DNA of 64,000 nt from assembly GCA_021324755.1 (NCBI GenBank), contig JAJPIL010000009.1, positions 1-64,000 of the forward strand, read 5' to 3'. The notes under the pieces are model-generated. The model searched no databases, was not told the origin of the DNA, and saw only the letters and a program-made list of their open reading frames with translations. The first letter of the stretch is position 1. Each line of letters begins with the position of its first letter. This document shows positions 45,454-54,675 of this stretch, piece by piece. The position numbers and the translations under genes are program-made. The stretch comes from Pseudomonadota bacterium. GTDB lineage: Bacteria > Desulfobacterota > Binatia > Binatales > Binataceae.

Positions 45454-46878
45454 TCAGACCGTGGAAAATTGCGTGCGGCCGCGGCCTGTCGTCTCGGTCA
45501 GTCGGTAGTCCAACAGCTGCTCGTCCATTTCAAGTGGCGAACCGTCAGCTCCGACCGCGTCTTCGATCGCTGGCAGTTGCTGAGTCTTTAAGCTTTGCTC
45601 GGGCGCCACTGGTGACGTCGCCGCAAGCGCTTCAGTTACTCTGCGCCTGGGTTTTGAAAGCCCTGCCTTGGTGATGTGATACTGGAGCGCCCGCAGGCTG
45701 ATTCCCAGACGTCTTGCCGCCTCGGCTCTGTTTCCTCCGCAACTCGCTATCGTTCTTAACACCATTTCGCGGCGCGCTTGTTCGCGGCGCGCCTTCCAGG
45801 CCGAGCTTTCCTCGTCTTCCTTGGTTTCCAAGGCGGCAAGGCCCAAGTGACGGCGCACATCGGGCGTGTCGACGAGATGCCCACCGGCCTCCAAGGGCGC
45901 AATCGCCAGTCGCGCCATCAAATTTTTGAGCTCACGTACGTTGCCAGGAAACGGATAGTGACTGAGCATCCGCAAAGCGGACAAACTGATTCGCCGTTTC
46001 GGATTAGCTCGAAGCAAGAAATAATTAGCCAAAATCGGGATGTCGGCTTGACGACGGCGCAGGGCTGGTATCTCGAGGGTAAAAGCGTTGATTCGCCAGT
46101 AAAGGTCCTGACGAAACTCGCCACGTTCCACCAAAGAGCTTAAGCGAACACTGGTTGCCGCAACAGGCCTAAGCTGGGAAACGCGGCCAGGCGCGTCGAT
46201 GTACGCCTCCCCTGCAACAAGGGCCTGCAACAGTATCAGCTGATTCGCCTTGGAGAGCTCTCCCACGTCGTCGATGAAAAGGGTGCCTGGGGAACCATCC
46301 CCGTAAACCAACCGCGAGAAGTCAAGACCGCCTTGCGATGGTGCTTGCGGTTCTGACCGCGACTCGTGGCCGATCGCCGCCGCTGACCCTGCTGAGTCGA
46401 GCGCCGCACAGCTCACAATGTAAAATTTGCCGGCGCGTCCGCTGGCGTGATGAATGAGACGCGCCATCATTTCCTTGCCCGAGCCAACTTCGCCTTCGAT
46501 CAGCACGGGCACCGGACTGGCCGCAACGCAAATCGCCGCCCGCACGCAAAAGAACATGTCTGGGTCGCCGGTCAGAAAAGGAGGCGCGAGTTTCAACGCG
46601 TGTGAAAACACAAAAGTAGCGGCCGCTAACAAGTTATCGCTTGCAAAGTCAGCCCCACGACGCGGCTCTGAGCCGCTGCGCGCGGTTAGATCGAGGCTTA
46701 CCGTCGGCACTCCTGCCGGCCTTGCGCCGATAAAATCCACGTACAAATCGGCGTGTTGTCTCTGCGCAAAACTCACAACTTCAAGGCCAAGACGCGTCAG
46801 GTATCCGCTAAACTCGCTGGGCGCCCCATTCCCAAGACACACTCGAATGGGGCGCGAACTCACCGTTTCGTCGCTCAT
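45454..46878 (-). CDS. NtrC/FleQ-type AAA+ regulator without GAFTGA motif
   Basis: A 474-residue regulator. Residues 1-115 form a small N-terminal domain that may be a degenerate FleQ-type receiver. The AAA+ domain follows: Walker A GEVGSGKE (129-136), Walker B TLFIDDVGEL (199-208), the RQDLYWRINAFTLEIPALRR and FPGNVRELKNL segments. The C-terminal Fis-type helix-turn-helix reads CGGNRAEAARRLGISLRALQ. After GHE (170-172), where sigma-54 activators carry GAFTGA, it has SRSEPQAPSQGG. Without that loop, sigma-54 contact is unlikely; it may repress or act with another sigma factor. Its position in the locus suggests a master flagellar regulator. Confidence 0.8.
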   Translation of the reverse strand: MSDETVSSRPIRVCLGNGAPSEFSGYLTRLGLEVVSFAQRQHADLYVDFIGARPAGVPTVSLDLTARSGSEPRRGADFASDNLLAAATFVFSHALKLAPPFLTGDPDMFFCVRAAICVAASPVPVLIEGEVGSGKEMMARLIHHASGRAGKFYIVSCAALDSAGSAAAIGHESRSEPQAPSQGGLDFSRLVYGDGSPGTLFIDDVGELSKANQLILLQALVAGEAYIDAPGRVSQLRPVAATSVRLSSLVERGEFRQDLYWRINAFTLEIPALRRRQADIPILANYFLLRANPKRRISLSALRMLSHYPFPGNVRELKNLMARLAIAPLEAGGHLVDTPDVRRHLGLAALETKEDEESSAWKARREQARREMVLRTIASCGGNRAEAARRLGISLRALQYHITKAGLSKPRRRVTEALAATSPVAPEQSLKTQQLPAIEDAVGADGSPLEMDEQLLDYRLTETTGRGRTQFSTV

Positions 46879-48220: not shown

Positions 48221-48569
48221 GGAAAAGCAAAATCGATGCCCCGACGATCCGGATAGCTCAAAAGTGAGCGGTAAATGGAGCAGCCAGAGCCGTAAAAATG
48301 CGCGATTTCAACCAACTTATGCCGCTTAGCTGCCAGCCTATTTTGACTCGAGCGGCCTACGAATACCGAAAGTGGCAGACGAGGGTCGTTTTCTCAGTTG
48401 TTACGGAAGCGCGACATGAATGGACAGCTCTGGGACAACTTTTTGTCTCATACGAAACTTCCTTTCCTTGCCTCGCCAAACACCTCTCGCGGCTAGCGCT
48501 CAGGCTAAGCTTACTGAGTGGAAGCACAAAGCTTCCAAAGAACGATCCACCGCACAGGAGGATTAGCAG
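48221..48569 (+). promoter_or_regulatory. Divergent fliM2/fliC control region
   Basis: These 349 nt separate the minus-strand operon from flagellin and must hold promoters for both. A weak sigma-28-like element is TAAA at 48272-48275 followed 13 nt later by GCCGTAAA (48289-48296; consensus GCCGATAA with about 15-nt spacing). I do not consider it proven. A 7-bp hairpin (48519-48537) lies just before the fliC ribosome site AGGAGG (48556-48561), which is 8 nt from the ATG, implying strong translation. Confidence 0.45.
48519..48537 (+). repeat. Hairpin in the flagellin mRNA leader
   Basis: TGGAAGC (48519-48525) and GCTTCCA (48531-48537) are exact reverse complements around a 5-nt ACAAA loop, 18 nt before the AGGAGG of fliC. 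It may stabilise the flagellin message or be a binding site for a post-transcriptional regulator such as CsrA, but the GGA lies in the stem, not in the loop. Confidence 0.5.
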
Positions 48570-49826
48570 ATGGCACTCAGCCTTATCACCAATATGGGGG
48601 CGAACATCGCCGCCAATGCACTGGCCAACAACCAGACCGAGATGAATCAGACGGTCTCTCAGCTAGCGACAGGTCAGCGAATCGTCAACGCCGCGATCGA
48701 CCCGGCGGGCTTGGCGATTTCTCTTGAGATGTCAGGCCTGTTGGGCTCGCTCAACCAAGACAGCACGAACGCAGCCAATGCGCAGGGGATGTTGCAAACT
48801 GCGGACGGCGCCCTGGCCAACATCGGAAACGCTCTGGTGACGATGCAACAGATCGCCAACGAGTCGGCCGACGGCACCGTCAACAACACGCAGCGCCAAT
48901 CGTTGGACGCGCAGTTCCAACAGCTCTATACCGAGATCAACAACATCGCTCAAAGCACCGAGTTCAACGGTATCAGCCTGCTTCAAGGGCAACAGGTCAC
49001 ATTCCAGGTCGGACCCAGCAACAGCGCGCAAGATCAGCTCGTGGTCTCCTTGCCGAACGTCTCCGCGGGGGGTCTGCTGAGCTTCAATGTGCCTTCAACC
49101 GGGCTAAAGTTAAGCAGTGATAACTATTACGGAGTAACGTTCAACTACAATAATGAATCCGGAGCGAGTACTGGAGGAGTAAGTCCGGTCGTGTCCTACG
49201 GAACAGGCACGACATTGGACACCGGCACGGCTAATCTCGCTGCCAGCAGCGGCACGTCCGGCGTCATCGGGCCAAATAGCCCAAACTGGGTGATGCTCAC
49301 CGTACAAAGTATCAGCAGCAGCGGTACGGCCGAGACGACCGGGTCTTTGAGCTCCGACACGATCACGTTTTCGATCACCACCGCCAACGGTCAGAACGAG
49401 GGCACCGTCACGCTCAGCTCCGGCGCCAACTGGATCAACAATTTGGGTGGCAGTGGCGCTGACTTTTCGATTTCGACCTCGAGCAGCGTCACCTTCGCAG
49501 TCGGCCAAGAAATTCTAATTTCGCTGGGGCCCAACTTGATGACGCAGGGGTCGTCGCAAACCCAGATCTCGTCTGTAAGCACGGCTCTCTCGACCCTGGC
49601 CGGCTACCGCGGCAGTATAGGCGCGTATGAGCAACAGCTTTCAACTATTTCCTCTAACCTCCAATCGGAAAGCCAGAACCTGACCGCCGCGCTTTCGAAC
49701 ATTCAGGATGCCAACGTGGCCACGACCTTCGCGCAGTTCACCAAGCAACTAGTGCTGGAGCAGTCGGGCGTGGCGGTGCTCAAAAACGCCGAGCAAATAC
49801 CGCAACAGCTGGCCCAGTTGATCTAG
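48570..49826 (+). CDS. fliC: Flagellin FliC
   Basis: A 418-residue flagellin. The N-terminal D0/D1 region includes GANIAANALANNQTEMNQTV, RIVNAAIDPAGLAISLEMSG and STEFNGISLLQG. The C-terminal D1/D0 includes TLAGYRGSIGAYEQQLSTIS and ANVATTFAQFTKQLVLEQSG, then VLKNAEQIPQQLAQLI. The central variable domain (about 170-330) is rich in Ser, Thr, Gly and Asn, giving many possible O-glycosylation sites, in keeping with the downstream GT41 gene. This is the only flagellin in the window. The start has a strong AGGAGG. Confidence 0.95.
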   Translation: MALSLITNMGANIAANALANNQTEMNQTVSQLATGQRIVNAAIDPAGLAISLEMSGLLGSLNQDSTNAANAQGMLQTADGALANIGNALVTMQQIANESADGTVNNTQRQSLDAQFQQLYTEINNIAQSTEFNGISLLQGQQVTFQVGPSNSAQDQLVVSLPNVSAGGLLSFNVPSTGLKLSSDNYYGVTFNYNNESGASTGGVSPVVSYGTGTTLDTGTANLAASSGTSGVIGPNSPNWVMLTVQSISSSGTAETTGSLSSDTITFSITTANGQNEGTVTLSSGANWINNLGGSGADFSISTSSSVTFAVGQEILISLGPNLMTQGSSQTQISSVSTALSTLAGYRGSIGAYEQQLSTISSNLQSESQNLTAALSNIQDANVATTFAQFTKQLVLEQSGVAVLKNAEQIPQQLAQLI

Positions 49827-49831
49827 TTCAG

Positions 49832-49887
49832 CCCGAGAGCTCGGGCGTTTAGGTGCGGCGCTGACGGCTTTACCGGCCGTCAGCGCC
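49832..49887 (+). terminator. Double hairpin after fliC
   Basis: Two stems follow the fliC stop: a small one (cccga-gagc-tcggg, 49832-49845) and a perfect 12-bp one, ggcgctgacggc (49857-49868) with gccgtcagcgcc (49876-49887) around a 7-nt loop. There is no T-run directly after, so it may attenuate rather than stop transcription and may protect the flagellin message from 3' decay, lowering expression of the modification genes behind it. Confidence 0.6.
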
Positions 49888-49922
49888 ATCCCAGCAAAGG
49901 GTAATTTCTTAAGGTAATTGCT

Positions 49923-52025
49923 ATGGGTGTATCGGCAATCTCGGTTCGAGACAAAGCGCAGACGGTGGGTTACTGCGCGAGCGTGGATGAAATCTTCGGA
50001 CTTGCTCTGAATTGTATCGCCGCAGAGCGCCACGAAGAAGCCAAGCGCTATCTGCGACTGGTTCTCGAGCTCGATCCCTCTCACGTTGACGCACTCACCA
50101 ATCTTGCTGCGTTGCACATCAACGACCGCGAGTACAACGAGGCCAAGCTCCTGTGCAGACGAGCGCTGGCTTGCGCTCCAGGCTCCGTAAATGCGCTGGT
50201 CAATTTAGCCTGTGCTTTGCTCAAGGAGGACCCTGAAGACGGCGCAGCAGAAGCCGCCGGTCTGCTCAGAACAGCTACCGGCCTGGATCCCACGTGCGCC
50301 AACGCCTGGCTCGGGCTTGCCGAAGCTTACATCGCCCTGTGCCATCATCGCGCGGCCCTTGATGCTGCGCGCAACTCGATAGTCCTCAGCCCAAAGGATC
50401 CGAGGATGTTCGCTGCGGCCGGGCGGGCCGCGCTCGGCAATGAGGCCGCCGGTCCGGACCATGCTGAAACGGCTGCTTACTACTTTACGTGCGCCCTCGC
50501 TCTTGCTCCCAAAAGCGCCGACTACTGGTTCGGACTCGCAAGCGCATTAGATAAGCAAGACAAGACGATGGCGTCGGCGGCAGCCTACCGTACGGCTCTG
50601 GCACTGAATCCTACGATGCACAACGTCAGAATGCGTCTTGCTGTGCTCTGCCCCGCTATCCCAGAATCAGTTTCCGACATAAAGTACTGGTCTGACCAGA
50701 TCTCAATTGAATGCAAACAGCTTCTCGAAACGCGAACGCTTCGTTTTGACGATCCCTATCGCGAATGCAACTTCGTAAGCTCTCGCCACGCTTACTACGA
50801 TATTGCGGAACGTCAAGTGAGCGAGACGATCGCTCAAATCCATCTTAACGCATGCCCTCGCCTCCAATGGGTTGCGCCACATTGTAAGAAACCTGGGAGT
50901 GCAAATCGACGCCTGCGAGTCGCGATCGCGACTGTCTTTTCCCGCAATCACATCGTCGCGCATCTCGCGATGGGGATCGTCAGGCATCTGGATCGGTCGC
51001 AGTTCGAGGTGATCGCCGTGATACCGCCGCGCTCTCCCGCCTCGCGAGCGCATCTGCGCAAAGACGTACTGGCTGGAGCGGACTATATCGTCGAGCTACC
51101 CAAGCAGCTAATTTCCGCCCAAGAAGCTTTGGCCGCGCTCAAGCCTGACGTCTTCTTTCCGTTGGACGTCATGATGGACCCGATGATTTACTTTTTGTCG
51201 TTTGCGCGACTTGCTCCAGTGCAGTTAACCACATGGGGACATCCACTGACGACCGGAATTCCCAACATGGACTACTTCCTTTCAGCGAACGAGTGGGAAG
51301 AGTCAGGCTCTGACGCTTTCTATTCCGAGCGGCTTATTAGAATGCGACATCTGCCGATGTATGTGTTACCACCAGAGGCGACGCCTGAACTGACGAGATC
51401 CGATCTGGGGCTGCCCGAAGACAAGCGACTGTATGTTTGCCCTCAAAGCTTGTTCAAACTCCATCCGGACTTCGACGCCGCCTTGGGGCGAATTCTCGAA
51501 AGAGATCCAAAAGGTGTGCTCGTGCTCGTCGAGGGCAACAGCGTTCATTGGCGCAGAAAGTTCTTGCTGCGCTTGTCTCAAAAATTTCGCCATGTACTCG
51601 ATCGCGTAATCTTCCTGCCGCGTCAATCGGTAAGCCGCTTCGTCAACATCTACCGGCTTGCCGACGCCGTGCTCGACCCCTGGTACTGGTCGGGAGGCAA
51701 CACCACGATCGAGGCGCTCGCCGTCGATCAGCCCGCGGTCACGCTCCCAGGAAGGTTCATGAGAGGCAAACTGTCGCTGGGCTTTTACCGTCGGATGGGA
51801 TGCGACGAGCTTGTAGTCAATACCGGCGACGAATACGTCGAACTAAACTTGCGAATTGCGCGCGACGAAGATTTTCGCCGCGCGCTCAGGGCAAAAGTCG
51901 CCGAGCGACGTCAGGTGCTCTACGAACAAATAAAGCCGATAAGGGAGTTGGAACGATTTTTTGTGGCAGCCGTAGAAAACGCAAGATGCGGCAAGAAAAT
52001 CGACGAGTGGAGCGGAGATTGTTAG
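49923..52025 (+). CDS. TPR-containing O-GlcNAc transferase-like glycosyltransferase (GT41)
   Basis: A 700-residue protein. The N-terminal half (about 20-235) has at least five TPR repeats (such as ALNCIAAERHEEAKRYLRLV and LELDPSHVDALTNLAALHIN). The C-terminal half (about 320-690) is a SPINDLY/OGT-type GT41 catalytic region with VFSRNHIVAHLAMGIVRHLD, LAPVQLTTWGHPLTTGIPNM and the nucleotide-sugar motif YWSGGNTTIEALAVDQPAVT. GT41 enzymes transfer GlcNAc or related sugars to Ser/Thr. Placed between fliC and fliD it probably glycosylates flagellin in the cytoplasm before export. Donor sugar and target are inferred. Confidence 0.82.
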   Translation: MGVSAISVRDKAQTVGYCASVDEIFGLALNCIAAERHEEAKRYLRLVLELDPSHVDALTNLAALHINDREYNEAKLLCRRALACAPGSVNALVNLACALLKEDPEDGAAEAAGLLRTATGLDPTCANAWLGLAEAYIALCHHRAALDAARNSIVLSPKDPRMFAAAGRAALGNEAAGPDHAETAAYYFTCALALAPKSADYWFGLASALDKQDKTMASAAAYRTALALNPTMHNVRMRLAVLCPAIPESVSDIKYWSDQISIECKQLLETRTLRFDDPYRECNFVSSRHAYYDIAERQVSETIAQIHLNACPRLQWVAPHCKKPGSANRRLRVAIATVFSRNHIVAHLAMGIVRHLDRSQFEVIAVIPPRSPASRAHLRKDVLAGADYIVELPKQLISAQEALAALKPDVFFPLDVMMDPMIYFLSFARLAPVQLTTWGHPLTTGIPNMDYFLSANEWEESGSDAFYSERLIRMRHLPMYVLPPEATPELTRSDLGLPEDKRLYVCPQSLFKLHPDFDAALGRILERDPKGVLVLVEGNSVHWRRKFLLRLSQKFRHVLDRVIFLPRQSVSRFVNIYRLADAVLDPWYWSGGNTTIEALAVDQPAVTLPGRFMRGKLSLGFYRRMGCDELVVNTGDEYVELNLRIARDEDFRRALRAKVAERRQVLYEQIKPIRELERFFVAAVENARCGKKIDEWSGDC

Positions 52026-52081
52026 ATGCGTCGAGGCCGGCGAGCCAACACTAACGCCTGTCACCTTTAAGGAGGATTGTC

Positions 52082-52831
52082 TTGCAACCGAGCGACTTTG
52101 AAGCAGCAGCCGCGCTTGTTCGCGCTCGAATCAACGCTATCTTTGCCCATGGCAAGATTCGCGGGGAGCATCAGCTTCACGATATATTTCCGATTTCGCT
52201 CACGCCCGAGCGCTGCCGAGTGCTTTCACTGGTATGCGGCATGCGCCTATGCCAGGCGACGCTGGAGATTGGGATGGGATGGGGAATTTCTACGCTCGTA
52301 ATCCTCGAGGCGATGCTACGGCAGGGAAGACCATTCGCCCCACATGTCGTTATCGATCCGTTCCAGCGCTCGTCGTTTGACAATGCAGCGATTAATGCGG
52401 TTCGAGAAATGGGACTTGCTGATTTCGTGACACTGTACGAGGAACCTTCCGAGTTGGTGCTCCCCCAACTTGTCCGCGCGGGAAGTCGTTTCGACTTTGT
52501 GTTTGTAGACGGCGATCATCGGTTCGACGCGACATTCGTTGACTTTGTGTATGCAGGGAAACTTTGCAATCCAGGAGCGATATTACTGTTCGACGATACC
52601 TGGCTCGAGAGCGTCAATTTGACGGTTCAATACGCGCTGACAAATCTTAATTATGCGGAGGTTTCGCTGGCTGGGGTAGTTCCTTTTTATCGAGGCCGTC
52701 CGATGCTTCGGGCGTTAGTGAAACCGGCAGAAGAACCGCCCCGAAATGGGTTATGGACGGAGGAGCTTATTCCATTTTGGACGAACGGTCTTGGCCTGGA
52801 CATGTCAGACGCACAAGCTCCCGGAAAGTAA
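52082..52831 (+). CDS. Class I SAM-dependent methyltransferase
   Basis: A 249-residue protein with a Rossmann methyltransferase core: motif I LEIGMGWGISTLVILEA (about 60-76), and FDFVFVDGDHRFDATFVDFV then GAILLFDDTW for motifs post-II/III, typical of Methyltransf_24-type small-molecule or sugar methylases. The start is TTG 52082, with AAGGAGG 6 nt upstream. Between the GT41 gene and fliD, it may methylate the flagellin glycan or lysines of flagellin. The substrate cannot be read from the sequence. Confidence 0.75.
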   Translation: MQPSDFEAAAALVRARINAIFAHGKIRGEHQLHDIFPISLTPERCRVLSLVCGMRLCQATLEIGMGWGISTLVILEAMLRQGRPFAPHVVIDPFQRSSFDNAAINAVREMGLADFVTLYEEPSELVLPQLVRAGSRFDFVFVDGDHRFDATFVDFVYAGKLCNPGAILLFDDTWLESVNLTVQYALTNLNYAEVSLAGVVPFYRGRPMLRALVKPAEEPPRNGLWTEELIPFWTNGLGLDMSDAQAPGK

Positions 52832-52878
52832 TCTCAAATCGGCCGTTCAGCGGCTAGAAAAGAGCCAAGGAGGATCGA

Positions 52879-54243
52879 ATGGCAGGGGCGCCGACACCAA
52901 TCAGTCTTCCAAACTATGCGGGAATCAACTTCAACACGATTCTACAAGCGATCGTGGCTGCTGGGGAACAGCCGATCGCAAGTCTCGACCAGAAAATTCA
53001 AGGCGAGACCGCATCGATCAGCGCTCTGGGAACGATAAAAGGCGACCTCAGCGTGCTCAATACCAGCCTGCTTGCCCTTCAGTCGGACGGCGCAAACCTG
53101 CCATTGAACGCGACCACCAGTAGCGGAGCGCCTTTCAGCGTCCAGACCAGCGGCACGCCAATGGTCGGCACCTACTACGTAAACGTAACGCAGCTTGCTA
53201 CCAACCAGGTGACGGTTTCGCAGGGTTACGCCAGCGACACCAGTACCGTCGGCACCGGAACAGTAACGCTTACCGTGGGCGGTACGCAGTACACGATTAA
53301 CGTCACCAGCTCTAACGATACGCTTGACGGACTTGCACAAGCGATCAACGCCGCCAACACTGGCGTGACCGCGCAAGTTATCGACACTGGCGCGGCAACC
53401 AATCCATACGAGCTCGAACTGGTTGCAAACCAAACTGGAACCAACAGCGCGTTTTCCGTCTCGACCAGCTTAAGCGGCGGCACAGCTCCTACTTTTACTA
53501 CTATCCAAAGCGCCCAGAACGCCGCCCTGACGGTGGACAGCCAGCAATTCTATTCGCAGAGCAATACGGTAACCAACGCGATCCCAGGTTTGAGCATCAA
53601 CCTAAACGGAGTGGGAAGCGGCACTATAACGGTTTCTCAGGACGCACAGAAGCTGAGCTCGGACGTTCAATCGTTCGTTTCTGCCTACAATCAGCTTCTG
53701 TCGGACATTCGCAGCAACACCCAGGGTGAGCCGAACCAAGCATTGCCGCCGCTTTATGCCAACGGGGCGATCGAAGCCCTGGGGCTTGGGCTCCAGTTAG
53801 CCATCGGGAACGTTGAACTATCGAACCTCGGCGTCTCGGTAGATAACAACGTTGCTCAAGGCAACAACGGCCAACTGACATTTAGCCAGGCAACGCTTGA
53901 TTCTGCGCTGGCGTCGAACCCATCCGGCGTCCAAAATTCATTAACGCAGCTATATAACGCACTAAACGGGATCGTGACCGACGCGCTGGCCTCGAACTCG
54001 GGCGTAATCGACTCGGAAATAAGTTCGTACAACGACCTCATCAACCAACAGAACCAACAAATTTCACAACTTCAGCAGCAGCTTCAACAAACTGAGAGTC
54101 AGTTCGAGACTTTAGCAGGCCAGGTACAATCCGAAATCGCCTACTACGCCAACATCGCGCAGCTGTTCTTCAGCGGGAGCTCGGGGACGTCCGGATCTTC
54201 TGGCTCGGGTTTATCGGGCGGCAGTCTTAATTCAATCGCATAA
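52879..54243 (+). CDS. fliD: Flagellar filament cap protein FliD (HAP2)
   Basis: A 454-residue cap protein. N-terminal FliD region: YAGINFNTILQAIVAAGEQP then YYVNVTQLATNQVTVSQGYA. The middle contains a flagellin-hook-like IN domain (GTVTLTVGGTQYTINVTSSN). The C-terminal FliD domain has LSSDVQSFVSAYNQLLSDIR followed by coiled-coil QQNQQISQLQQQLQQTESQF. A Ser/Gly-rich tail ends the protein. FliD promotes flagellin folding at the filament tip. Transcribed with fliS directly behind. Confidence 0.92.
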   Translation: MAGAPTPISLPNYAGINFNTILQAIVAAGEQPIASLDQKIQGETASISALGTIKGDLSVLNTSLLALQSDGANLPLNATTSSGAPFSVQTSGTPMVGTYYVNVTQLATNQVTVSQGYASDTSTVGTGTVTLTVGGTQYTINVTSSNDTLDGLAQAINAANTGVTAQVIDTGAATNPYELELVANQTGTNSAFSVSTSLSGGTAPTFTTIQSAQNAALTVDSQQFYSQSNTVTNAIPGLSINLNGVGSGTITVSQDAQKLSSDVQSFVSAYNQLLSDIRSNTQGEPNQALPPLYANGAIEALGLGLQLAIGNVELSNLGVSVDNNVAQGNNGQLTFSQATLDSALASNPSGVQNSLTQLYNALNGIVTDALASNSGVIDSEISSYNDLINQQNQQISQLQQQLQQTESQFETLAGQVQSEIAYYANIAQLFFSGSSGTSGSSGSGLSGGSLNSIA

Positions 54244-54270
54244 ATCGCATAACACGTTGGAAAGGAGAAG

Positions 54271-54675
54271 TTGACCCAAGATATGAAAGCGCTAGCAGCA
54301 TATCAACAGTCGAAAACGCTAACCTTCGACACCGTCAAGCTTTTTGAAGAACTATATATGAAGCTTGCCCAGCAATGCGAAGAAATGCTTTCGTGTCGTG
54401 CCAAAGGGGATTTTGAGCGGCTGGGAGCGATAGTCGACAGGGCACTACTGACGCTTGGCCTAATGGATCAGCAAATCGACCTTTCTAAAAACGTCGAAAT
54501 CGGCGCCCGAATCCTCCACCTTCATCGGTTTCTTTTTCGCGCTTTAGTATCGGTAAAACTGGACCCGTCAGGACCCGCCTTGGATGGCCTCGGCAACGTA
54601 TTCGTCGAAATGGCAGGTATATTTGCCGCGATGGCCAATCCGGGTCCCGAGAAACCTGGGCAAAAACAGGCCTAA
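54271..54675 (+). CDS. fliS: Flagellin export chaperone FliS
   Basis: A helical protein of up to 134 residues. The pattern AAYQQSKTLTFDTVKLFEEL near the N-terminus, the four-helix layout and the position right after fliD point to FliS, which caps flagellin's C-terminus before export. Sequence match is moderate. Two starts compete: TTG 54271, with AAGGAG only 3 nt away, and ATG 54283, with the same site about 15 nt away. Confidence 0.75.
   Translation: MTQDMKALAAYQQSKTLTFDTVKLFEELYMKLAQQCEEMLSCRAKGDFERLGAIVDRALLTLGLMDQQIDLSKNVEIGARILHLHRFLFRALVSVKLDPSGPALDGLGNVFVEMAGIFAAMANPGPEKPGQKQA

Follow-up and report, generated by a model that had tools for sequence, protein, structure and literature searches.

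A GT41 glycosyltransferase and a methyltransferase gene between fliC and fliD: a mobile accessory unit linked to flagellin and a probable flagellin modification cassette

Organization of the flagellin locus

The sequence analyzed here, referred to as the window, is a stretch of 64,000 nt (contig JAJPIL010000009.1 of assembly GCA_021324755.1, positions 1 to 64,000, forward strand). Its open reading frames include a run of five genes on the + strand in the order fliC – TPR/GT41 glycosyltransferase – SAM methyltransferase – fliD – fliS, and the domain matches of all five exceed the curated Pfam cut-offs. The locus contains the following features:

48570..49826, + strand: fliC, flagellin of 418 aa, the proposed acceptor protein (Pfam Flagellin_N, 1.1e-28; Flagellin_C, 2.1e-11)
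49857..49887, + strand: 13-bp, G+C-rich hairpin without a U tract, between fliC and the glycosyltransferase gene (from folding)
49923..52025, + strand: TPR-GT41 glycosyltransferase of 700 aa (Pfam Glyco_transf_41, 2.3e-22, plus several TPR families)
52082..52831, + strand: SAM-dependent methyltransferase of 249 aa with a TTG start (Pfam Methyltransf_24, 9.5e-17; Methyltransf_3, 7.7e-7)
52879..54243, + strand: fliD, filament cap (Pfam FliD_N and FliD_C)
54271..54675, + strand: fliS, flagellin export chaperone (Pfam FliS, 6.1e-7)

Strong Shine-Dalgarno sequences precede fliC (AGGAGG, 48556-48561), the methyltransferase gene (AAGGAGG, 52069-52075), and fliD (AAGGAGG, 52867-52873), and a weak one precedes the GT41 gene (AAGG, 49911-49914). 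The reading frames, Pfam matches, and Shine-Dalgarno sites thus bear out the first-pass annotation, which had described a TPR-OGT fusion and a SAM methyltransferase with their own ribosome sites between fliC and fliD. We also looked to base composition for signs of transfer, but GC and GC3 of both inserted genes are unremarkable. The flagellar cluster of the window further contains a gene for an NtrC/sigma-54-type activator (45454-46878, - strand); a pattern search for a sigma-54 promoter gave no match ahead of fliC.

The region downstream of fliC folds strongly (49824-49925; MFE -45.2 kcal/mol, z -4.35, with none of 200 shuffles as stable). Strongly folding spacers also lie 3' of fliC in all six of the other flagellated relatives examined, so the hairpin at 49857-49887 probably belongs to the flagellin mRNA, as its 3' end or an attenuator, with the cassette located between the hairpin and fliD. 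Such an element could result in much flagellin and little enzyme. The fliC 3' hairpins of all flagellated family members examined are strong, G+C-rich, and without a U run; in two congeneric genomes of the family, G015 and G027, the fliC 3' spacers are conserved and long (177-179 nt), with folding energies of about -80 to -90 kcal/mol.

The glycosyltransferase and the methyltransferase

The 700-aa protein comprises a TPR solenoid (about residues 20-240) followed by a GT41 domain (about residues 245-690), which scores 79.4 bits against the Glyco_transf_41 cut-off of 25 and places the protein in the GT41 family. In an AlphaFold2 model built from 11 input sequences (pLDDT 88.8, pTM 0.87), the solenoid leads into a GT-B catalytic domain with two lobes, and Foldseek matches the model to SPY, human OGT, TtOGT, and XcOGT, the target 5djs being a crystallized K341M mutant of the bacterial TtOGT. 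Sequence matches in the PDB comprise human and fly OGT, TtOGT, XcOGT, HMW1C-type enzymes, and SPINDLY. H343 aligns with the histidine of the NHP motif of human OGT, and K512, within LFKLHP, aligns with the lysine of LYKIDP in the same protein (a YKxxP-type motif); K512, H514, P515, and D516 are invariant in an 11-row family alignment. As modeled, the enzyme is therefore predicted to have the fold of GT41 protein glycosyltransferases: it shares with human OGT, TtOGT, XcOGT, and SPINDLY the TPR and GT41 architecture and the conserved catalytic-site lysine and histidine, although its identity to them is about 20%.

The fold does not indicate the sugar donor, because OGT uses UDP-GlcNAc and SPY uses GDP-fucose. 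NeuB (PF03102) was not found in the 95% complete genome, while a Caulobacter control was positive; de novo synthesis of pseudaminic, legionaminic, or sialic acid is thus unlikely, and we rejected a nonulosonic-acid donor on this basis. No sugar-nucleotide genes were recognized among the reading frames of the window, a part of which was run against Pfam, which makes a common nucleotide sugar the simplest donor. A Maf flagellin glycosyltransferase was likewise rejected, as the genome contains no match to the MptE-like domain PF01973, a search whose positive controls were archaeal only and thus weak for bacterial Maf.

Sequence and profile searches with the methyltransferase (METHYLTRANSFERASE) match small-molecule O-methyltransferases. 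Its Methyltransf_24 domain scores 62.2 bits against a cut-off of 26.3, the top matches in a PDB profile search are all O-methyltransferases, and most of its relatives of known structure are catechol-type enzymes that act on small molecules. Residues D143, D171, and D172 are invariant in a 12-row family alignment and probably form a metal site, which presumably corresponds to that of COMT-like O-methyltransferases. At the sequence level, the 249-aa protein resembles metal-dependent small-molecule O-methyltransferases; its structure model is weak (pLDDT 58) and was used only as support for an O-methyltransferase fold. Pfam detected no FliB match in this gene.

About ten genomes of the family encode methyltransferase relatives with 39-46% identity, located away from flagellin, and nearly all of these genomes have no flagellin gene. 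In at least four family genomes, a GT2 glycosyltransferase or sulfotransferase gene lies near such a relative, which points to glycans as their substrates; the remaining loci give no substrate hint. Viral relatives were limited to five weak partial matches. The methyltransferase of G015 (L040, 6553-7725) has an additional C-terminal segment of ~120 aa, without a Pfam match, that is missing from the window protein.

Distribution and relatives of the gene pair

Among the 41 genomes of the family sample, this type of GT41 is present in three, one of them with a fragment on a 3.5-kb contig. In G015, a MAG labeled Deltaproteobacteria (JAKBMB010000011.1), the genes are arranged as fliC-fliD-fliS-methyltransferase-GT41 on one strand; the same pair is thus found in reversed order and at a different insertion point in the same flagellar cluster. 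The two genomes belong to different genera of the family, and the proteins of the pair are 40% and 52-55% identical between them. With the same two genes beside fliC-fliD-fliS in a second genus, and the GT41 type in 3 of 41 genomes, the cassette layout is more than chance.

G027, the sister genome of G015 (fliC 86% and fliD 79% identical), lacks the pair in otherwise matching surroundings: after fliS, the genes shared with G015 resume without the methyltransferase-GT41 segment. The pair was also not found at the sequenced fliC-fliD loci of four other family genomes (G007, G009, G011, and G021), where fliC is followed directly by fliD, in G011 as far as the short contig reaches. Since the pair is kept beside fliC despite its new order and place, and is absent from relatives, it is a mobile accessory unit whose link to flagellin persists through rearrangement, and this linkage is the strongest evidence for flagellin as the substrate. 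The locus thereby shows the trait of flagellin glycosylation islands, a variable insertion of glycosyltransferase and modifying genes next to flagellin. Behind the pair, G015 carries a DksA/TraR-type zinc-finger ORF and a DndB-like ORF (PF14072; L040, JAKBMB010000011.1, 10497-12348). Both are also missing from G027 and may have moved as one insertion with the pair.

Scanning genome contigs with a two-sequence GT41 alignment yielded 21 loci, most of them away from flagellar genes and two beside them. In a Planctomycetota MAG (L051, VGZC01000009.1, 2652-11993), flagellin and fliD are followed by a single 1395-aa protein with TPR, GT41, and methyltransferase domains (PF13489 and PF08484), which, judged by its domains, appears to combine the two functions of the window cassette in fused form, in a comparable genomic setting. 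An alphaproteobacterial MAG (L052, JAKLKW010000156.1, 1398-9329) encodes flgK, flgL, two TPR proteins, and a TPR-GT41 that belongs to the GT41 branch of the window, with the series cut by the locus end. Of 144 alphaproteobacterial genomes sampled, at least 10 have a GT41 gene no more than about 10 kb from a flagellin gene, as in locus L173 (G089:C6, 2147-7662), where flagellin, TPR-GT41, NAD epimerase, and FkbM methyltransferase genes follow one another on one strand. Another locus, L169 (G180:C127, 1196-15045), holds an expanded glycosyltransferase array, with several tandem TPR-GT41 genes extending up to a flagellin gene.

GT41-type flagellin modification is known in some bacteria, as the first-pass annotation noted. 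FlmG of Caulobacter crescentus is a proven TPR + GT-B flagellin O-glycosyltransferase, whose TPR domain binds flagellin (PMC7591256). Like the window enzyme, FlmG combines an N-terminal TPR with a C-terminal GT41-like domain and is encoded near flagellin, and cytoplasmic modification before export is proposed for both. However, FlmG needs pseudaminic acid, and thus NeuB, which is absent from the window genome, making this donor type unlikely for the window GT41, to judge from gene content. In addition, the FlmG paper (PMC7591256) does not mention a methyltransferase, whereas the window cassette contains one.

The two may also differ in descent. A tree of 64 GT41 domains pairs the window GT41 with that of G015 (99%), both among mostly non-flagellar relatives, and a branch with 100% SH-aLRT support separates the window enzyme from the alphaproteobacterial flagellin-linked GT41s. 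Forcing the window and G015 pair into the FlmG-like flagellin-linked group, which was chosen after the tree had been seen, was rejected (p-AU 1.2e-6). A clade of 15 near relatives without the window pair was not rejected (AU test, p 0.187), so the data fit more than one branching order inside the window half of the tree. As sampled, the tree thus suggests a position of the window GT41 outside the alphaproteobacterial flagellin-linked enzymes, FlmG itself not being included by name.

Proposed modification of flagellin

The best explanation, and in our view a probable one, is that flagellin is glycosylated in the cytoplasm by the TPR-guided GT41 enzyme and that the sugar is then O-methylated. 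The TPR solenoid would bind newly made flagellin, and the GT41 domain would use a primary-metabolism nucleotide sugar, with UDP-GlcNAc as a first guess, to attach one sugar to Ser/Thr residues in the exposed central flagellin domain. The Methyltransf_24 enzyme would then O-methylate the protein-bound sugar, and the modified flagellin would be exported through the flagellar secretion system. O-glycosylation followed by methylation had been suggested in the first-pass annotation; the conserved linkage, the insertion polymorphism, and the Planctomycetota fusion lend good support to glycosylation plus methylation of flagellin, while the O-linkage and the methylation of the sugar are likely. The Ser/Thr-rich variable domain, cited there in favor of glycosylation, does exist (31% Ser+Thr in the central region) but is not diagnostic, with 23-29% in relatives without the enzymes, and we rejected it as proof. 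Also counting against the explanation are the poorly modeled structure and the mainly catechol-type solved relatives of the methyltransferase, and the lack of recognized dedicated sugar-nucleotide genes in the window.

Instead of the protein-bound sugar, the methyltransferase may act on the flagellin polypeptide, for example on Lys or Gln in a FliB-like manner, or on the nucleotide sugar while it is still free. Lysine methylation of flagellin by FliB, encoded beside fliC, is well known (PMC4875605), and a methyltransferase gene adjoining fliC is shared with the window; moreover, Shewanella oneidensis has both glycan and lysine methylation (PMC3765264). FliB, however, is an unrelated lysine N-methylase, and the O-methyltransferase-like character of the window enzyme, the glycan genes adjoining its relatives in several genomes, and the single Lys in the central flagellin domain speak against the peptide as a target; the free nucleotide sugar may still be one. 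Taken together, these alternatives are rather unlikely compared with methylation of the protein-bound sugar.

A different substrate altogether, be it the cap protein FliD, some other protein of the cytoplasm, or a surface polysaccharide, is improbable; the pair would then reside beside fliC for co-expression or by chance. In favor of this scenario, methyltransferase relatives occur in polysaccharide-type loci, and the GT41s of the window branch are mostly found in non-flagellar contexts elsewhere, a point that also counts against our preferred explanation and implies that flagellin is not the universal substrate of the branch. Yet the linkage to fliC-fliD outlasts rearrangement between two genera and recurs in fused form in Planctomycetota, GT41s lie near flagellins in the alphaproteobacterial genomes described above, and, to our knowledge, the functionally characterized GT41 enzymes act on proteins rather than LPS. 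Least probable is N-linked glycosylation of flagellin as by HMW1C-type GT41 enzymes. In its favor, the window GT41 matches HMW1C/NGT (1e-15) almost as well as XcOGT (1e-16), and flagellin contains seven N-X-S/T sequons, including two in the central domain. However, these sequons are not enriched relative to the flagellins of relatives without the enzyme, the closest structures are those of the O-transferases SPY and OGT, OGT also leads the sequence matches, and the TPR domain is OGT-like.

Flagellin islands that combine GT41 and methyltransferase functions have been described before. In 198 enterobacterial strains, De Maayer and Cowan (2016) found eleven GT41 types in flagellin islands, nearly all with methyltransferase domains, and these islands are patchy and horizontally acquired (PMC4875605). 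Like the window cassette, they combine GT41 (SPINDLY/OGT-type) and methyltransferase functions at the flagellin locus (fliC-fliA/fliDC in their case) with a patchy distribution. In contrast, theirs mostly unite both functions in one protein and many contain further sugar genes, whereas the window, compared by description only, has two separate genes, a Methyltransf_24 domain, no sugar pathway, and a host outside the enterobacteria. In S. oneidensis, where the sfm cluster holds a methyltransferase, NMR has demonstrated O-methylation of a flagellin glycan (PMC3765264). The window cassette is of the same kind as these known systems, from which it is set apart by its two-gene form, the Methyltransf_24 domain, the missing sugar pathway, and the position of its GT41, in the tree as sampled, outside the alphaproteobacterial flagellin-linked group. 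The earlier suggestion that the two-enzyme layout may define a distinct glycan goes beyond the present evidence, and the combination of the two enzymes has precedents (PMC4875605, PMC7591256).

More tentatively, and with the odds somewhat against it, a GT41 branch apart from FlmG may have been recruited independently, using a primary-metabolism sugar and a partner methyltransferase, separate here and fused in Planctomycetota, in a minimal system of two enzymes that gives flagellin a methylated monosaccharide. If the proposed modification is correct, one glycosyltransferase and one methyltransferase, without sugar-synthesis genes, would suffice for a capped methyl sugar on flagellin, providing a compact system to study the selection of flagellin by TPRs and cytoplasmic protein O-glycosylation in E. 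coli. GT41 enzymes would then have been recruited to flagellin on at least two occasions, and such systems, known from Caulobacter and enterobacteria, would extend to an uncultured lineage labeled Deltaproteobacteria and to Planctomycetota.
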